From positions 1 through 40,374 of the forward strand of contig OMJJ01000299.1 of assembly GCA_900299305.1 (NCBI GenBank): a DNA stretch of 40,374 nt, read 5' to 3'. A program made the translations under genes and the position numbers. The DNA comes from a bacterium (GTDB lineage Bacteria > Armatimonadota > Chthonomonadetes > Chthonomonadales > Chthonomonadaceae). A model generated the notes under the pieces. That model saw only the letters and a list, made by a program, of their open reading frames with translations. It did not search any database and was not told the DNA's origin. Below are positions 12,255 to 17,444 of this stretch, piece by piece (the stretch's first letter is position 1; every line of letters starts with the position of its first letter).

Positions 12255-12548
12255 ATGCCCAATCGTATATCTCTTGGGGAAGGGAATTTGTTACTGTCAA
12301 ACGAAGTGTCTCCGGATTGGAATGTTCTCCTTGCACCGTTCCAATCCCTCTTTAGCAAGGCAGGTTTTCGCTACTTTTGTGCGTTTGTTCGTGTTTTTGC
12401 CCACCTCGACGACAGATTGTGGGTCACGCAAGTCATTCCTGCCAAGCATCTAGAGCGACACTGGACGAACTACTGCCCGTTCTTACACTCTCCTGCATGG
12501 GAGGTAACGAAGACGCAAAGCCAGAAACACAAACATAAACCACTTTGA
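12255..12548 (+). pseudogene. Truncated N-terminal transposase remnant (IS701/IS4-like)
   Basis: 'LLAPFQSLFSKAGFRYFCAFVRVFAHLDDRLWVTQVIPAKHLERHWTNYCPFLHSPAWEV' resembles N-termini of IS701-like transposases; ends abruptly with no DDE domain. Confidence 0.5.
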
Positions 12549-12626
12549 GAGGGGTGATTGTGCCACTACTATAGCGAAATCGCTAAACTACAGTCTACAT
12601 CCTTTTACCAGAAACTAAAGATGCTA

Positions 12627-12653
12627 CGCACTCGCCCTTTTCTATATCTCATG
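12627..12653 (-). pseudogene. Remnant start of a third tandem paralog (MRYRKGR...)
   Basis: Minus strand ATGAGATATAGAAAAGGGCGAG lies 4 nt after the stop of the 12658-13458 gene and matches that gene's own start ATGAGATACAGAAAAGGACGAG; the ORF then diverges and stops after a few codons. Confidence 0.6.
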
Positions 12654-12657
12654 GCGA

Positions 12658-13458
12658 CTACTCTCTGGGGCGTAGGAGTTCCTGTTCCGGCTCTTGTGTT
12701 GACCCCATGATAGGACGAAGCAGTTCGGGAGATACGTTTGGTTCACTAGAAGCACGTAGCAAAACCCGTGCCTCCTGCTCTTTTGCTAGGCGGGTTTTTA
12801 GGATAGGTAAACACCTCTGTACCACAGAAACCAACTCTTTGTAAGGCTCGGCGGGTTCTTTGGTTAGTAGGCGTTCCAGCAGGCGCACCGATTCCTGATT
12901 CCCTACATAGCGTAACGCTTCGATACAGCCACGGCACAAAGCAGTGCTAGGCACACCATCACTATCAAGCAAAAAGAGCAATCGAGCAGGAAAGAGTGCT
13001 TTTACTATCTGGTGCATCCAGTCGATATGCTTGGGTGCGAAAAAAATGGCATCCTCTTCCCTTACTTGCGGCAAAAGCGTTATTAGAACTTGTACTGCTT
13101 TCGGAGTGTGTTTGCCCATACAATCACAAAGTGCCATCTCAATAATAAAGGGGAGTGCGTCTGGTTTTCCCCTACTCTCTACTGCATGGATGACTTTCAC
13201 CGCGACTCGTATCCGGTCAGGGACGCTTATCGCAATTACCCCTCCAAGCCCTGTAAGCACGGTCGAACCGATAGATTTCAATAGACCGTCTGAAGAGAAG
13301 AGTAGCATAAAAGCGACACAGATAAACCCCACAACACCAAGTGCTGCCAATGTCACCGGACCTTTGACTAGAGCGGTGGCATAGTCGGTTTTACTACGGA
13401 GAGCATCTAACTCACTATCCTTTGTATAGAGATTATCTCGTCCTTTTCTGTATCTCAT
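12658..13458 (-). CDS. Two-TM protein with helical domain and LLR-rich conserved tail (paralog B)
   Basis: Homologous to the adjacent upstream ORF: 'SRGKPDALPFIIEM...PKHIDWMHQIV' and the tail 'LLRASSEPNVSPELLRPIMGSTQEPEQELLRPRE'. Confidence 0.75.
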   Translation of the reverse strand: MRYRKGRDNLYTKDSELDALRSKTDYATALVKGPVTLAALGVVGFICVAFMLLFSSDGLLKSIGSTVLTGLGGVIAISVPDRIRVAVKVIHAVESRGKPDALPFIIEMALCDCMGKHTPKAVQVLITLLPQVREEDAIFFAPKHIDWMHQIVKALFPARLLFLLDSDGVPSTALCRGCIEALRYVGNQESVRLLERLLTKEPAEPYKELVSVVQRCLPILKTRLAKEQEARVLLRASSEPNVSPELLRPIMGSTQEPEQELLRPRE

Positions 13459-13463
13459 GGCGG

Positions 13464-14297
13464 CTACTCTTTGGGGCGCAGAAGTTCCTGCTCTGGCTCT
13501 TGGGTAGCCCCCATTACGGGACGTAGTAGTTCCGGAGAGACGTTCGGTTCGCTAGAGGCACGTAGTAAGGTGGTCTGTGCCGTCTGGTGTGCTACACACG
13601 CCTGTATTTCTGGTAAGCACTGCTCTGCTGTGTCGTACAGACCGTTAGAGCGATGAGCAGGAGTGGCGCGGCGCACTATCGCGTTTACTGCCAACAACAA
13701 TTCCGTATTACCTACGTAACGGCACGCCAAGATAATCCCTTTGCTGACCTCTACGTTAGCACTCTCTGGGGCTGGGGCAGAGATAGTATTCATAAGAGTG
13801 CGGTTCATCCATTGAATGTGACGCGGTAGAAAACAGGTGGCTTCATTTGCCGTAACCCGCGATAACAAGAGCTGAAGCACCTGCAATGTGGAGGGTTTTG
13901 ACTTATAGTTTACGGCATCGTTGAGAATAACATCGACTATGAAGGGAGTTGCATCGGGCTTGCCCCGCCTCTCAATATCTAAGACGAGTTCTTCCCCCTG
14001 TTTTCTCCGCTTCCATATCCCATGCACCACTGCAATAGAGATGGCGGGCAAGCAGAGCAAAAAAAGAGCCAACAATATCCCCCAAAACCCTCCCCAATTT
14101 GTTAATTTGGAAGTATCTGCAAAAGAGTAGAGTTGGAGTATGATAAACAATCCAAGCACCCAGGCAACTCCCCATTTTTGAGGGCGTTTTGCGTTTTGTA
14201 TCAGTTTCGCTGTTCGTGTAGCGATAGCCTGTAACTCTGGGTCGCTGTAGGTAACGGGTGCACTCTTCGATTTTGCGGTGGGCTGAAATAGGTTCAT
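13464..14297 (-). CDS. Two-TM protein with helical domain and LLR-rich conserved tail (paralog A)
   Basis: Start placed at MNLFQPT (14297) rather than the ORF-track M at 14375; 'RRGKPDATPFIVDV...PRHIQWMNRTL' and the tail 'LLRASSEPNVSPELLRPVMGATQEPEQELLRPKE'. Confidence 0.7.
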   Translation of the reverse strand: MNLFQPTAKSKSAPVTYSDPELQAIATRTAKLIQNAKRPQKWGVAWVLGLFIILQLYSFADTSKLTNWGGFWGILLALFLLCLPAISIAVVHGIWKRRKQGEELVLDIERRGKPDATPFIVDVILNDAVNYKSKPSTLQVLQLLLSRVTANEATCFLPRHIQWMNRTLMNTISAPAPESANVEVSKGIILACRYVGNTELLLAVNAIVRRATPAHRSNGLYDTAEQCLPEIQACVAHQTAQTTLLRASSEPNVSPELLRPVMGATQEPEQELLRPKE

Positions 14298-14442
14298 AGT
14301 TTTCTCTTCAAAGTGGGCGCGGTTCTCCCTAAGATAACCAAGAAGGCTTGTTAAACAGAGAGATGTACCGTCCAATCACACTCCTCTCAACTTAAGAAGG
14401 GTAGCGGAAGGAGTGAGTGACAAGCATAACGTAACACACTAT

Positions 14443-16605
14443 CTACCGCCATTCAATCTCAAGTCTGTCTCCCGTCGCCATTTTAATCGGTGATTGGAAC
14501 GTAAGCACAACCTCTTGCCCTATAGCCTCCCTAGAGCGAATGCCAATGGGCGCAACTCCCAAACTCACAAGAATACGCGCCTCCTTACTCTCTACCGCGC
14601 TTTTGGGAACCCGCACACTCTGCACTACCAGAACCGCGCCCGCGCCTCCAAAGTGTGCCTTATGCGCTAAAGAGATAAGCCGCTCCACACGAAAACTAAC
14701 GAGGTAGCCCTTAGCACGCGGCTTAAACTCAACGCGCCCCCAAAAGCGCGGCTTTGTTACAGGGATAGTAAGGGTGCGCCATGTTCCCGGTATCTCCGGA
14801 GTAAGCCGTAATATCTGAGATTGAGGGTCGTAATCGAAACCTGCTAGTGCGTTAGGTGTGTAGCCTCCAACGGCTTGTGCCAATGCCGTTCGCAAGGGAG
14901 TTGATAGCGGCTTAGGCGTAGGGAGGTAGGTAAATGCAGAAAGGGTATCGACTTCTAACGGCTTCAAACCCCGCGTTAGCCGCAGCCCCATCTTCAGGGC
15001 GTTAGCAAGTAACTCCTGCTCACTCTTTTCTGCCGATAGCAGGTACTGAGACAAGAAACCCATTGCCCTTTGAATAAAAGGTGAGTGGAATCGTAACGCC
15101 TCCTCATCCTCTGCACCAAACCCATACTGCCCCACCATCAGCACGTAGGCGCAGGTGTTTCGTAACAGAGCAGAAGTCGGTTCGGGAAGGGTAGGAGACG
15201 AAGACGGCTGGAGGCGCGTATATCCCTGCTCCAAACTACCCGTATCCGATGGAAAAGAGCCATCTACCGACTGCGTTCGCGCCAAGCGTTCCAAATTCGC
15301 ACGGCAGAGCGCGGGAAAGTAGTTTACCAGCGTCTCATTCAGGGCAAGCGCGTCATAAGCAGAGGCGAAGTTCGCACCCGCTCGGTTCTCCCCTGCCTCC
15401 CCAACCTCTGCCAGTAGCCCAAGCTCACCCTCTCTTCCATGCGTCAGGTGAGTAGTCAGCGCGGCAACACTGTTCAAAATCTGAGACACAAGGGGGCGCG
15501 GCAAAGTAGACGAGAGTAGGCGGCGTTGTGGCTCCTCCGTAAGCGCAATAAGGTGACGGTACTCCGTAAGCAACTCTTGGGCAGTACGCACCGCAGAGGG
15601 AAACGCCTTAGCCGCGTAGTCGCCATAATCGACCCCCGAAAGCGCAAAATGGTGAGGAACGTGCCAAGCCACCGCAAAAGGAACCTCCGCATAATCCCCC
15701 GGACTAAGCGTAAGGCGCACCGCAATCGCCCCCGCGGGGTGGTTCTTGCCCTCCTCACCCATTCCTGTAGAACCCGATACCGTACCATCACGTGCAAACG
15801 CTTCCCACCAAGGTGGCTGAGGGGCGAGTGTGTTCCAACCCGCCATGCTAATGCTCACCTCTTTGCGCGGGGGGCGCATCAGCAGAGCCATCTCGCCGGT
15901 GGTGTTATCGCGTAAATGTTCTTCAAGGGAGTTCCCCTGAGTAAGCGGAACCCCCTGCATCCTCATTCCGAATATCCCCTGCTCATCCGGTATCGACACA
16001 ACAGACGTACCCGTTCGATTCGAGGTCGTGCCAAGCCTAGCCGTCCCTCCTACCCCCAGCACATTCTCCCAAGAGAGCAGTACGCTCACCTCAACCGGGA
16101 TAGTAGAGGGGTTTTTAAGTTCAAACAGAAACAGCCCTGCCGGAAAGGAGGAGTTCCGCAAATCGTGCGGTATAAGAGGAGAGGCTACCCGCAAACGCAC
16201 CTGTAGCGGCAGAGTCGGGTCTTTTGGGGTGAGAAACGCCTCTGGAAAAAGCCCCTGAAAATCCAATGCACCGATATTGGGGAGCGAATAAGGGGTTTTG
16301 AGGGTAAAGCTACGCGCAGAGATACGCTCGCCCCGCTTTGTCCATATCGCCGCAAAGCAACCGGGAAGGCTTGCAATAGGGCGTTGGGAGTTGTGAGTCC
16401 ATGCACCCTGAGTTATTGCCCCTTCGCTGTTCACCTCAAAGGTTCCTGCGCCCACCCCGCCAATAGGCACACGGTTAAGAAGCGGCGTGGTAAGCAACAC
16501 CCCCTCTTTCTTATCGAAAGGCGGTACTACCTGCCCCTTGCCCTCTTCCAATACTCCCGTAAGTAGCATCAAAAGTAGGTAAGTGAGAAGAGAACGAGAG
16601 TTCAT
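14443..16605 (-). CDS. GH116 (GBA2-like) family protein, divergent, exported
   Basis: 'LLNRVPIGGVGAGTFEVNSEGAITQGAWTHNSQRPIASLPGCFAAIW' resembles the GBA2 N-terminal domain; start reset to MNSRSLLTYLLLMLL (16605), giving an ATGA overlap with the upstream gene. Confidence 0.65.
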   Translation of the reverse strand: MNSRSLLTYLLLMLLTGVLEEGKGQVVPPFDKKEGVLLTTPLLNRVPIGGVGAGTFEVNSEGAITQGAWTHNSQRPIASLPGCFAAIWTKRGERISARSFTLKTPYSLPNIGALDFQGLFPEAFLTPKDPTLPLQVRLRVASPLIPHDLRNSSFPAGLFLFELKNPSTIPVEVSVLLSWENVLGVGGTARLGTTSNRTGTSVVSIPDEQGIFGMRMQGVPLTQGNSLEEHLRDNTTGEMALLMRPPRKEVSISMAGWNTLAPQPPWWEAFARDGTVSGSTGMGEEGKNHPAGAIAVRLTLSPGDYAEVPFAVAWHVPHHFALSGVDYGDYAAKAFPSAVRTAQELLTEYRHLIALTEEPQRRLLSSTLPRPLVSQILNSVAALTTHLTHGREGELGLLAEVGEAGENRAGANFASAYDALALNETLVNYFPALCRANLERLARTQSVDGSFPSDTGSLEQGYTRLQPSSSPTLPEPTSALLRNTCAYVLMVGQYGFGAEDEEALRFHSPFIQRAMGFLSQYLLSAEKSEQELLANALKMGLRLTRGLKPLEVDTLSAFTYLPTPKPLSTPLRTALAQAVGGYTPNALAGFDYDPQSQILRLTPEIPGTWRTLTIPVTKPRFWGRVEFKPRAKGYLVSFRVERLISLAHKAHFGGAGAVLVVQSVRVPKSAVESKEARILVSLGVAPIGIRSREAIGQEVVLTFQSPIKMATGDRLEIEWR

Positions 16606-17444
16606 AGCCGTTGCGCTCCCTTCTTGGGAACCAAAAAGAGTAGCCTCCACCGTCCCACTCCCTCAAACCCAATACGGGTATAGACACGCCCCGCCACTGG
16701 GTTTTCATAGAAGAGGGTGGGGCATTTCCCATCTCGTTGCAGGTCTAAGGAGAGGGCGGTAACACACGCCGCCGCATAGCCCTTGCCCCGCGCCTCTGGT
16801 AAGGTAAAGACTCCCCCTATCATCCCTGCCGCTTTTCCCTCTACATTCATCAGGGCAGAGGAGACGATACGGGCTGGGCGAAAGCGAGTCGCCTCCTCCT
16901 CTACCACAAAGGCGCGTTCTCTCCCGATTTTAGGCTGTAGGTTGGCGCGGCTACGGTACATCGTGCCGGCTACCGCGTAGAGTGCCACCATCCTTTCGAG
17001 GTCGGAGGCGAGTGCGGGGCGTGCCAATGGTAAGGCGGGCGATTGGTACAGAGGGGGTTGGCGTAGAGCCATGTAGAGGCTCTCCTCGTGGGAAGAGATT
17101 TGGTACTTATGCAGATGTGGGCAGAGCGCAGTTACGGTTTCGGCAGTACCGCGTATCCCCATCACACCTACTTCTGCGTCTATCATTTCGGCAAAAAGGC
17201 GGGCACACTCACCGCCAGCATCGACCACTACCACGGTATTGCTAAAGCGCATAAGAACGCCGCGTAGCGCGGTTTCGTTGGCACTAAACGCCCCCCAAAA
17301 CGTTACGGTATCGTGACGAAAGCCGTATCCTTCGATGTTTGTACGTACAGTATCCCACCGCCACGGGTCGGTAGCAAGCAGAGCCGAAAAGAGCAGTGCA
17401 TCCTCCTCTTGTAGTCGGCGAAGCACGGTGGGCAGTCTGCTCAT
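16602..17444 (-). CDS. GNAT family N-acetyltransferase
   Basis: 'GGVFTLPEARGKGYAAACVTALSLDLQRDGKCPTLFYENPVAGRVYTRIGF' GNAT acetyl-CoA binding region. Confidence 0.85.
   Translation of the reverse strand: MSRLPTVLRRLQEEDALLFSALLATDPWRWDTVRTNIEGYGFRHDTVTFWGAFSANETALRGVLMRFSNTVVVVDAGGECARLFAEMIDAEVGVMGIRGTAETVTALCPHLHKYQISSHEESLYMALRQPPLYQSPALPLARPALASDLERMVALYAVAGTMYRSRANLQPKIGRERAFVVEEEATRFRPARIVSSALMNVEGKAAGMIGGVFTLPEARGKGYAAACVTALSLDLQRDGKCPTLFYENPVAGRVYTRIGFEGVGRWRLLFLVPKKGAQRL

Follow-up and report, generated by a model that had tools for sequence, protein, structure and literature searches.

The locus described here raises the question of why two neighboring proteins with strongly diverged bodies should end in almost the same C-terminal sequence. 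It lies in a window of 40,374 nt, by which we mean the entire stretch of bacterial DNA that was analyzed, and consists of two minus-strand genes at 13464..14297 (gene 1; 277 aa from its ATG, or 303 aa from an alternative upstream TTG at 14375) and 12658..13458 (gene 2; 266 aa), separated by an intergenic gap of 5 nt. Over 34 codons their tails are 91% identical at the amino acid level, whereas their bodies share 28% identity.

Architecture of the gene pair and its family

Both proteins follow the same plan. Two hydrophobic segments, read from the sequence by hydropathy, form a probable membrane hairpin (14022..14171 in gene 1 and 13219..13362 in gene 2, both minus strand). These are succeeded by a HEAT-like helical core domain (13578..13916 and 12769..13122, minus strand) and lastly by the tail, which is LLRASSEPNVSPELLRPVMGATQEPEQELLRPKE in gene 1 (13467..13568, minus strand) and LLRASSEPNVSPELLRPIMGSTQEPEQELLRPRE in gene 2 (12661..12762, minus strand), each with three LLR units set apart by E/P-rich spacers. 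All of this agrees with the preliminary description, which had reported two adjacent genes 5 bases apart, a pair of N-terminal hydrophobic segments ahead of a helical domain, and near-identical tails of three LLR units upon diverged bodies. In an AlphaFold2 model of gene 2, the hydrophobic segments are helices of low confidence. Because positively charged residues lie on either side of the hydrophobic pair in both proteins, the positive-inside rule predicts that their N- and C-terminal ends should both be cytoplasmic. The core domains match our core profile A8 (E 7.8e-27 for gene 1 and 9.4e-30 for gene 2) and the tails match our tail profile A1, with both genes having contributed their own sequences to both profiles. 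The two genes also fit the definition of what we term the triple-LLR family, i.e. a HEAT-like domain followed by three LLR-type units located 11–17 and 13–17 residues apart. Upstream of the pair, a GH116-type glycosidase gene is found at 14443-16650 (PF12215 N-terminal domain, E 3.4e-43), and no RNA element was found in the region of the gene pair.

The two window proteins themselves score poorly as HEAT proteins. Gene 2 reaches 17.6 bits against HEAT_2, which is below the Pfam cut-off of 27.7, and gene 1 yielded no HEAT match in the Pfam search. Many family members do match HEAT models: HEAT_2 is matched at E<=0.001 by 34 of the 67 members from other genomes, and scores above its cut-off are reached by certain relatives, among them L124 and L139. 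AlphaFold2 modeling of gene 2 from an alignment of 8 sequences placed successive helices at about residues 101-238, mostly at pLDDT 70-95 but with lower confidence in a loop at 159-166, while a single-sequence model had a pLDDT of 45.6. The best folds retrieved from the PDB by Foldseek were alphaRep (a designed HEAT-like protein), HEAT and armadillo proteins, none of them significant (E >= 0.17), and a PDB sequence search with the tail and the body found nothing.

Across the family, a cross-validated HMM places the HEAT-like domain directly N-terminal of the tail for 113 members out of 116; the domain profile was built from family members, and the coupling of domain and tail within the own genome is accordingly a description and not an independent test. 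The only clear core-domain gene of that genome with no recognizable tail is C20:2582-2908, and in the third C27 copy the tail occupies another frame. The HEAT ORF and the tail are in different frames at L121:1587-3196 (G000:C179) and L142:6667-7482 (C27), which could reflect frameshift, assembly error or decay. Membrane-like segments, as judged from hydropathy only, are present in 88 of 116 members. The core domains themselves are diverged: across their last 110 residues, non-neighbors have a mean identity of 26%. The tail had previously been envisaged on different bodies, which holds for a few fusions only, since those 113 proteins carry variants of a single HEAT-like domain. In one of these, an arrestin-like Spo0M body lacking the HEAT-like domain ends in the tail (L173; PF07070, 8.9e-17), and in three others (L139, L185 and L186) the tail separates HEAT repeats from an FGE-sulfatase domain and is internal, with about 250-330 residues beyond it.

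Anatomy and distribution of the tail

The triple motif was found in 111 of 120 unique tail proteins sampled, and 302 of the 333 units are exactly LLR. Spacing is similarly regular, with 13-14 residues between units 1 and 2 in 99/111 tails and 14-16 residues between units 2 and 3 in 107/111. The residues following unit 1 are mostly AS, PA or PS and those following unit 2 are PA or PV. In most cases (79/89), the tail ends no more than 15 aa from the C-terminus. This pattern is not a product of chance, since 95 of 122 family ORFs contain it, compared to none of 767 non-family ORFs or 122,000 shuffled C-termini. The spacers are rich in E (16%), P (12.5%), A, S and D with few bulky hydrophobics, and the tail as a whole is hydrophilic with a net charge of -2. 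In the 8-sequence AlphaFold2 model it forms no helix or other secondary structure at a pLDDT of about 46-50, although such low confidence from so shallow an alignment is no proof of disorder. Taken together, the spacers are acidic, Pro-rich and probably disordered.

Far from being confined to the window pair, as the preliminary description had already considered, the tail is abundant in its own genome, where an initial search located 32 places and a profile of 28 tails located 37 (E <= 0.01). Same-genus genomes contain 35, 11 and 41 such places, and other genera of the order contain up to 41. Among 291 Armatimonadota genomes, many of them fragmented MAGs, the tail profile matched 27 of 31 Chthonomonadales genomes vs 4 of 260 others in the phylum, a comparison in which diverged tails from elsewhere may be under-counted, as the profile was seeded from the own genome. 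Of the four matches outside the order, three have the full triple motif and the other (G272) is a doubtful, partial profile alignment. Phage, plasmid and viral collections gave no match. The 266-aa gene 2 protein matched nothing among named genomes, while a subfamily alignment matched three named MAGs. The triple-LLR family is thus a lineage-specific, Chthonomonadales-centered group of paralogs comprising dozens of previously unnamed, scaffold-like bacterial proteins.

Protein constraint and DNA homogenization

Two forces could account for the resemblance between the window tails, namely selection upon the protein and copying of the DNA, and evidence for both was obtained. The tails differ at 19 of 102 nt, 16 of these differences being silent, in close agreement with the earlier estimate of about 20 in 100, mostly silent. 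With a tail pN of 0.04 and pS of 0.60, compared to a body pN of 0.51 and a pS of 0.67-0.76 that is close to saturation, the tail pair is old, is under purifying selection and has undergone no recent conversion. To this extent, the earlier proposal of a protein-constrained tail that was not recently converted holds for the window pair. However, the similarity does not stop with the coding sequence. The tails belong to a 132-nt direct repeat with copies that are 83% identical, in which copy 1 (13437..13568, minus strand) spans the gene 1 tail, the 5-nt gap and the first codons of gene 2, while copy 2 (12631..12762, minus strand) spans the gene 2 tail plus 27 nt past its stop codon. Those 27 nt, which extend the similarity beyond each stop, contain 3 differences and are less diverged than the silent sites within the tail. 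In copy 2 they form part of a vestigial gene start (12605..12652, minus strand; ATG AGA TAT AGA AAA GGG CGA ..., or MRYRKGR...) that meets a stop after 15 codons and has no gene behind it. As the repeat passes the stop codon and the corresponding stretch in copy 2 is no longer a gene, this segment was copied as DNA.

Several other arrays bear the signature of local homogenization, namely a pS that is low in the tail alone (tail value first): 0.26 vs 0.69 in a C27 tandem pair, 0.27 vs 0.74 in C250, 0.24 vs 0.64 in G003 C539 and 0.45 vs 0.79 in C128. The tails of tandem neighbors in these arrays have therefore been homogenized at the DNA level, and gene conversion or co-duplication probably contributes to the near-identity of neighboring tails, which is not purely a matter of protein constraint. 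Mean tail identity is 0.76 for pairs on the same contig but 0.48 otherwise, and among paralogs the correlation between tail and body distance is weak (rho 0.14). The arrays also turn over. At G000:C236:9029-9130 (L120), a lone, near-identical tail persists on a decayed gene as a pseudogene remnant adjoining an intact family member; given this decayed tail and the homogenization seen within arrays, it is evident that arrays are being born, converted and lost. A 90-bp non-coding element is found at just two places in the genome, window 12267-12356 and G000:C236:9225-9314, in copies that are 94% identical, each adjoining an LLR family member or remnant.

Comparisons between species place a further limit on the earlier description, which had called the tail hyper-conserved. 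That term is suitable solely for tandem neighbors, as orthologous-looking pairs have tail and body identities of 0.58 vs 0.63 (C186/G001) and 0.51 vs 0.66 (C317/G001); some other cross-species pairs, whose orthology is less certain, have the better-conserved tail, as in C255 vs G001 with values of 0.70 and 0.36. Across species, then, the tails of orthologs vary at least as much as their bodies, and the LLR anchors and their spacing alone persist.

From these results, one might suppose that gene conversion and tandem duplication are the main source of the likeness between tails, and that the tail was inherited like any other C-terminus and has little function of its own. The low tail-only pS of the C27, C250 and G003 C539 pairs, the 27 nt of similarity past the stop, the greater likeness of same-contig tails and the gene turnover evident from the C236 remnant and the vestigial start in the window would all be expected in that case. 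Conversion within arrays does not, however, explain why distant families and single copies dispersed through the genome keep the anchors and their spacing, nor why the window tails have a pS near that of the bodies and yet only 3 replacement differences. We therefore regard this explanation as quite unlikely.

A candidate docking function and its relation to known systems

The most likely reading, to which we give perhaps an even chance, is that the tail is a trivalent docking peptide by which a membrane-anchored HEAT-like family engages a shared cytoplasmic partner. This reading derives from the presence of three invariant anchors at a near-constant pitch on diverged HEAT-like bodies, from which they have moved onto a few others. 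Presumably, a small alpha-helical HEAT-like domain would usually be held in the inner membrane by its N-terminal hydrophobic segments with both protein ends on the cytoplasmic side, where a flexible, acidic tail could present three Leu-Leu-Arg-(Pro/Ala) anchors at intervals of about 14-15 residues. The anchors may then bind repeated sites on a common cytoplasmic partner, with a hub protein and the groove of a second HEAT solenoid as candidates, and specificity would differ among members through their diverged bodies. We infer the cytoplasmic location, disorder and docking of the tail from the anchors, the predicted disorder and the distribution of charges, and in this respect the docking portion of an earlier suggestion, namely a docking, sorting or proteolysis tag on the cytoplasmic face, is plausible. 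The occurrence of the tail on a Spo0M body and between HEAT and FGE-sulfatase domains suggests a portable module. The near-absence of correlation between tail and body distances among paralogs, and a replacement divergence far lower in the tails of the window pair than in their bodies, also favor docking. On the other hand, the tail could simply be inherited together with the HEAT-like domain, as the sampled fusions number 4 and three of these still include HEAT repeats, and the observation that, from one ortholog to another, the tail spacers vary at least as much as the bodies also speaks against docking. A more elaborate version, in which a private docking code allows one hub to gather dozens of HEAT adaptors and a few Spo0M/FGE proteins while recombination in arrays keeps local tails alike and bodies diversify, is conceivable, but rather improbable.

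The genomic neighborhood offers little guidance regarding a partner. Among the 61 neighbors scanned, which are diverse, there was no recurrent gene that would name a pathway, and those found repeatedly were MFS (4), TIM-barrel isomerase (3), PSCyt/DUF1549-DUF1552 (2 each) and MoxR (2). PSCyt-type genes adjoin the family at C119, C64, C178 and one G008 locus, which may be meaningful, and at several loci in two genera (L128, L143, L133 and L182) a family gene has a planctomycete-type PSCyt/PSD1 (DUF1549/DUF1553) or DUF1552 gene as its neighbor. The lack of a constant outside partner gene nearby is compatible with self-assembly, in which the LLR tail of one member would insert into the HEAT-like groove of another to create a membrane-bound polymer or network and the partner would be the family itself. 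Extended peptides are common ligands of HEAT solenoids, nearly all members combine the tail with a HEAT-like domain, and even LLR spacing would suit a repetitive surface. Nevertheless, the Spo0M protein carries the tail without such a domain, and the domains have diverged while the anchors are invariant, so that self-assembly seems unlikely to us.

Bacteria are known to mark proteins for Clp-type proteases by C-terminal tags, and a tail that is C-terminal, probably flexible and common to many proteins might similarly serve as a signal for regulated degradation or processing, read by a protease adaptor. However, known C-terminal degrons are short and terminal, whereas here three spaced units are kept as the extreme end varies, and the FGE fusions have the tail well inside the protein; accordingly, we consider a proteolytic role very unlikely. 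A short motif of fixed spacing in dozens of diverged proteins of one order argues strongly for a common binding partner, and identifying it would bring to light a scaffold system in a phylum that has received little study. The arrays additionally provide an example, in bacteria, of gene ends that are homogenized between neighbors while the remaining gene diverges.

As the preliminary description had surmised, this architecture does not correspond to a described system in the sources consulted: HEAT proteins are known, and their order-centered expansion with a triple-LLR tail is not described in Pfam, NCBIfam, PADLOC or the papers searched. PADLOC matches were limited to generic HEAT or HEAT-linked models, the open papers searched contained nothing relevant on the motif or on HEAT proteins in Armatimonadetes, and the portions of the Chthonomonas calidirosea genome paper reached by keyword do not mention the tail family.

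Among known systems, PEP-CTERM-type tags also place one C-terminal signature on many paralogs of a single genome. Such a signal has a C-terminal transmembrane helix followed by basic residues, whereas the family tail has no terminal hydrophobic helix or basic cluster and is instead acidic, Pro-rich and predicted to be cytoplasmic.

The cargo-loading peptides of encapsulins are short and flexible, frequently lie at the C-terminus and in some cases are repeated. The tail shares these features as a linear motif, and it might conceivably direct its carriers into a protein compartment. We nonetheless view this as extremely improbable, because no encapsulin (PF04454) was found above the Pfam cut-off in the own genome (assembly missing 5%), and the carriers are mostly membrane proteins. 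The only weak PF04454 match, at C200, is a phage capsid whose neighbors resemble terminase, portal and protease genes, and the locus (G000:C200, L252) is a probable prophage.

FGE-sulfatase domain proteins occur in bacterial conflict systems (eLife 2020 e52696, PMC7159879), which the family resembles in that a few tail proteins are fused to FGE-sulfatase and a MoxR ATPase adjoins two loci. In contrast to those systems, most family loci are without other components, there is no consistent MoxR operon, and no STAND, caspase or vWA partner was present among the neighbors scanned. The MoxR-type AAA ATPase genes are located directly upstream of family genes in two species of the genus (L144:5490-7291 and L194:7934-11273).

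Lastly, proteins of the HEAT_2 (PF13646) and HEAT_PBS (PF03130) families resemble the triple-LLR family in that many members match these models and the model of the window protein suggests a fold of helical repeats, whereas the window proteins are distinguished by their sub-cut-off scores, an added membrane hairpin and the triple-LLR tail.
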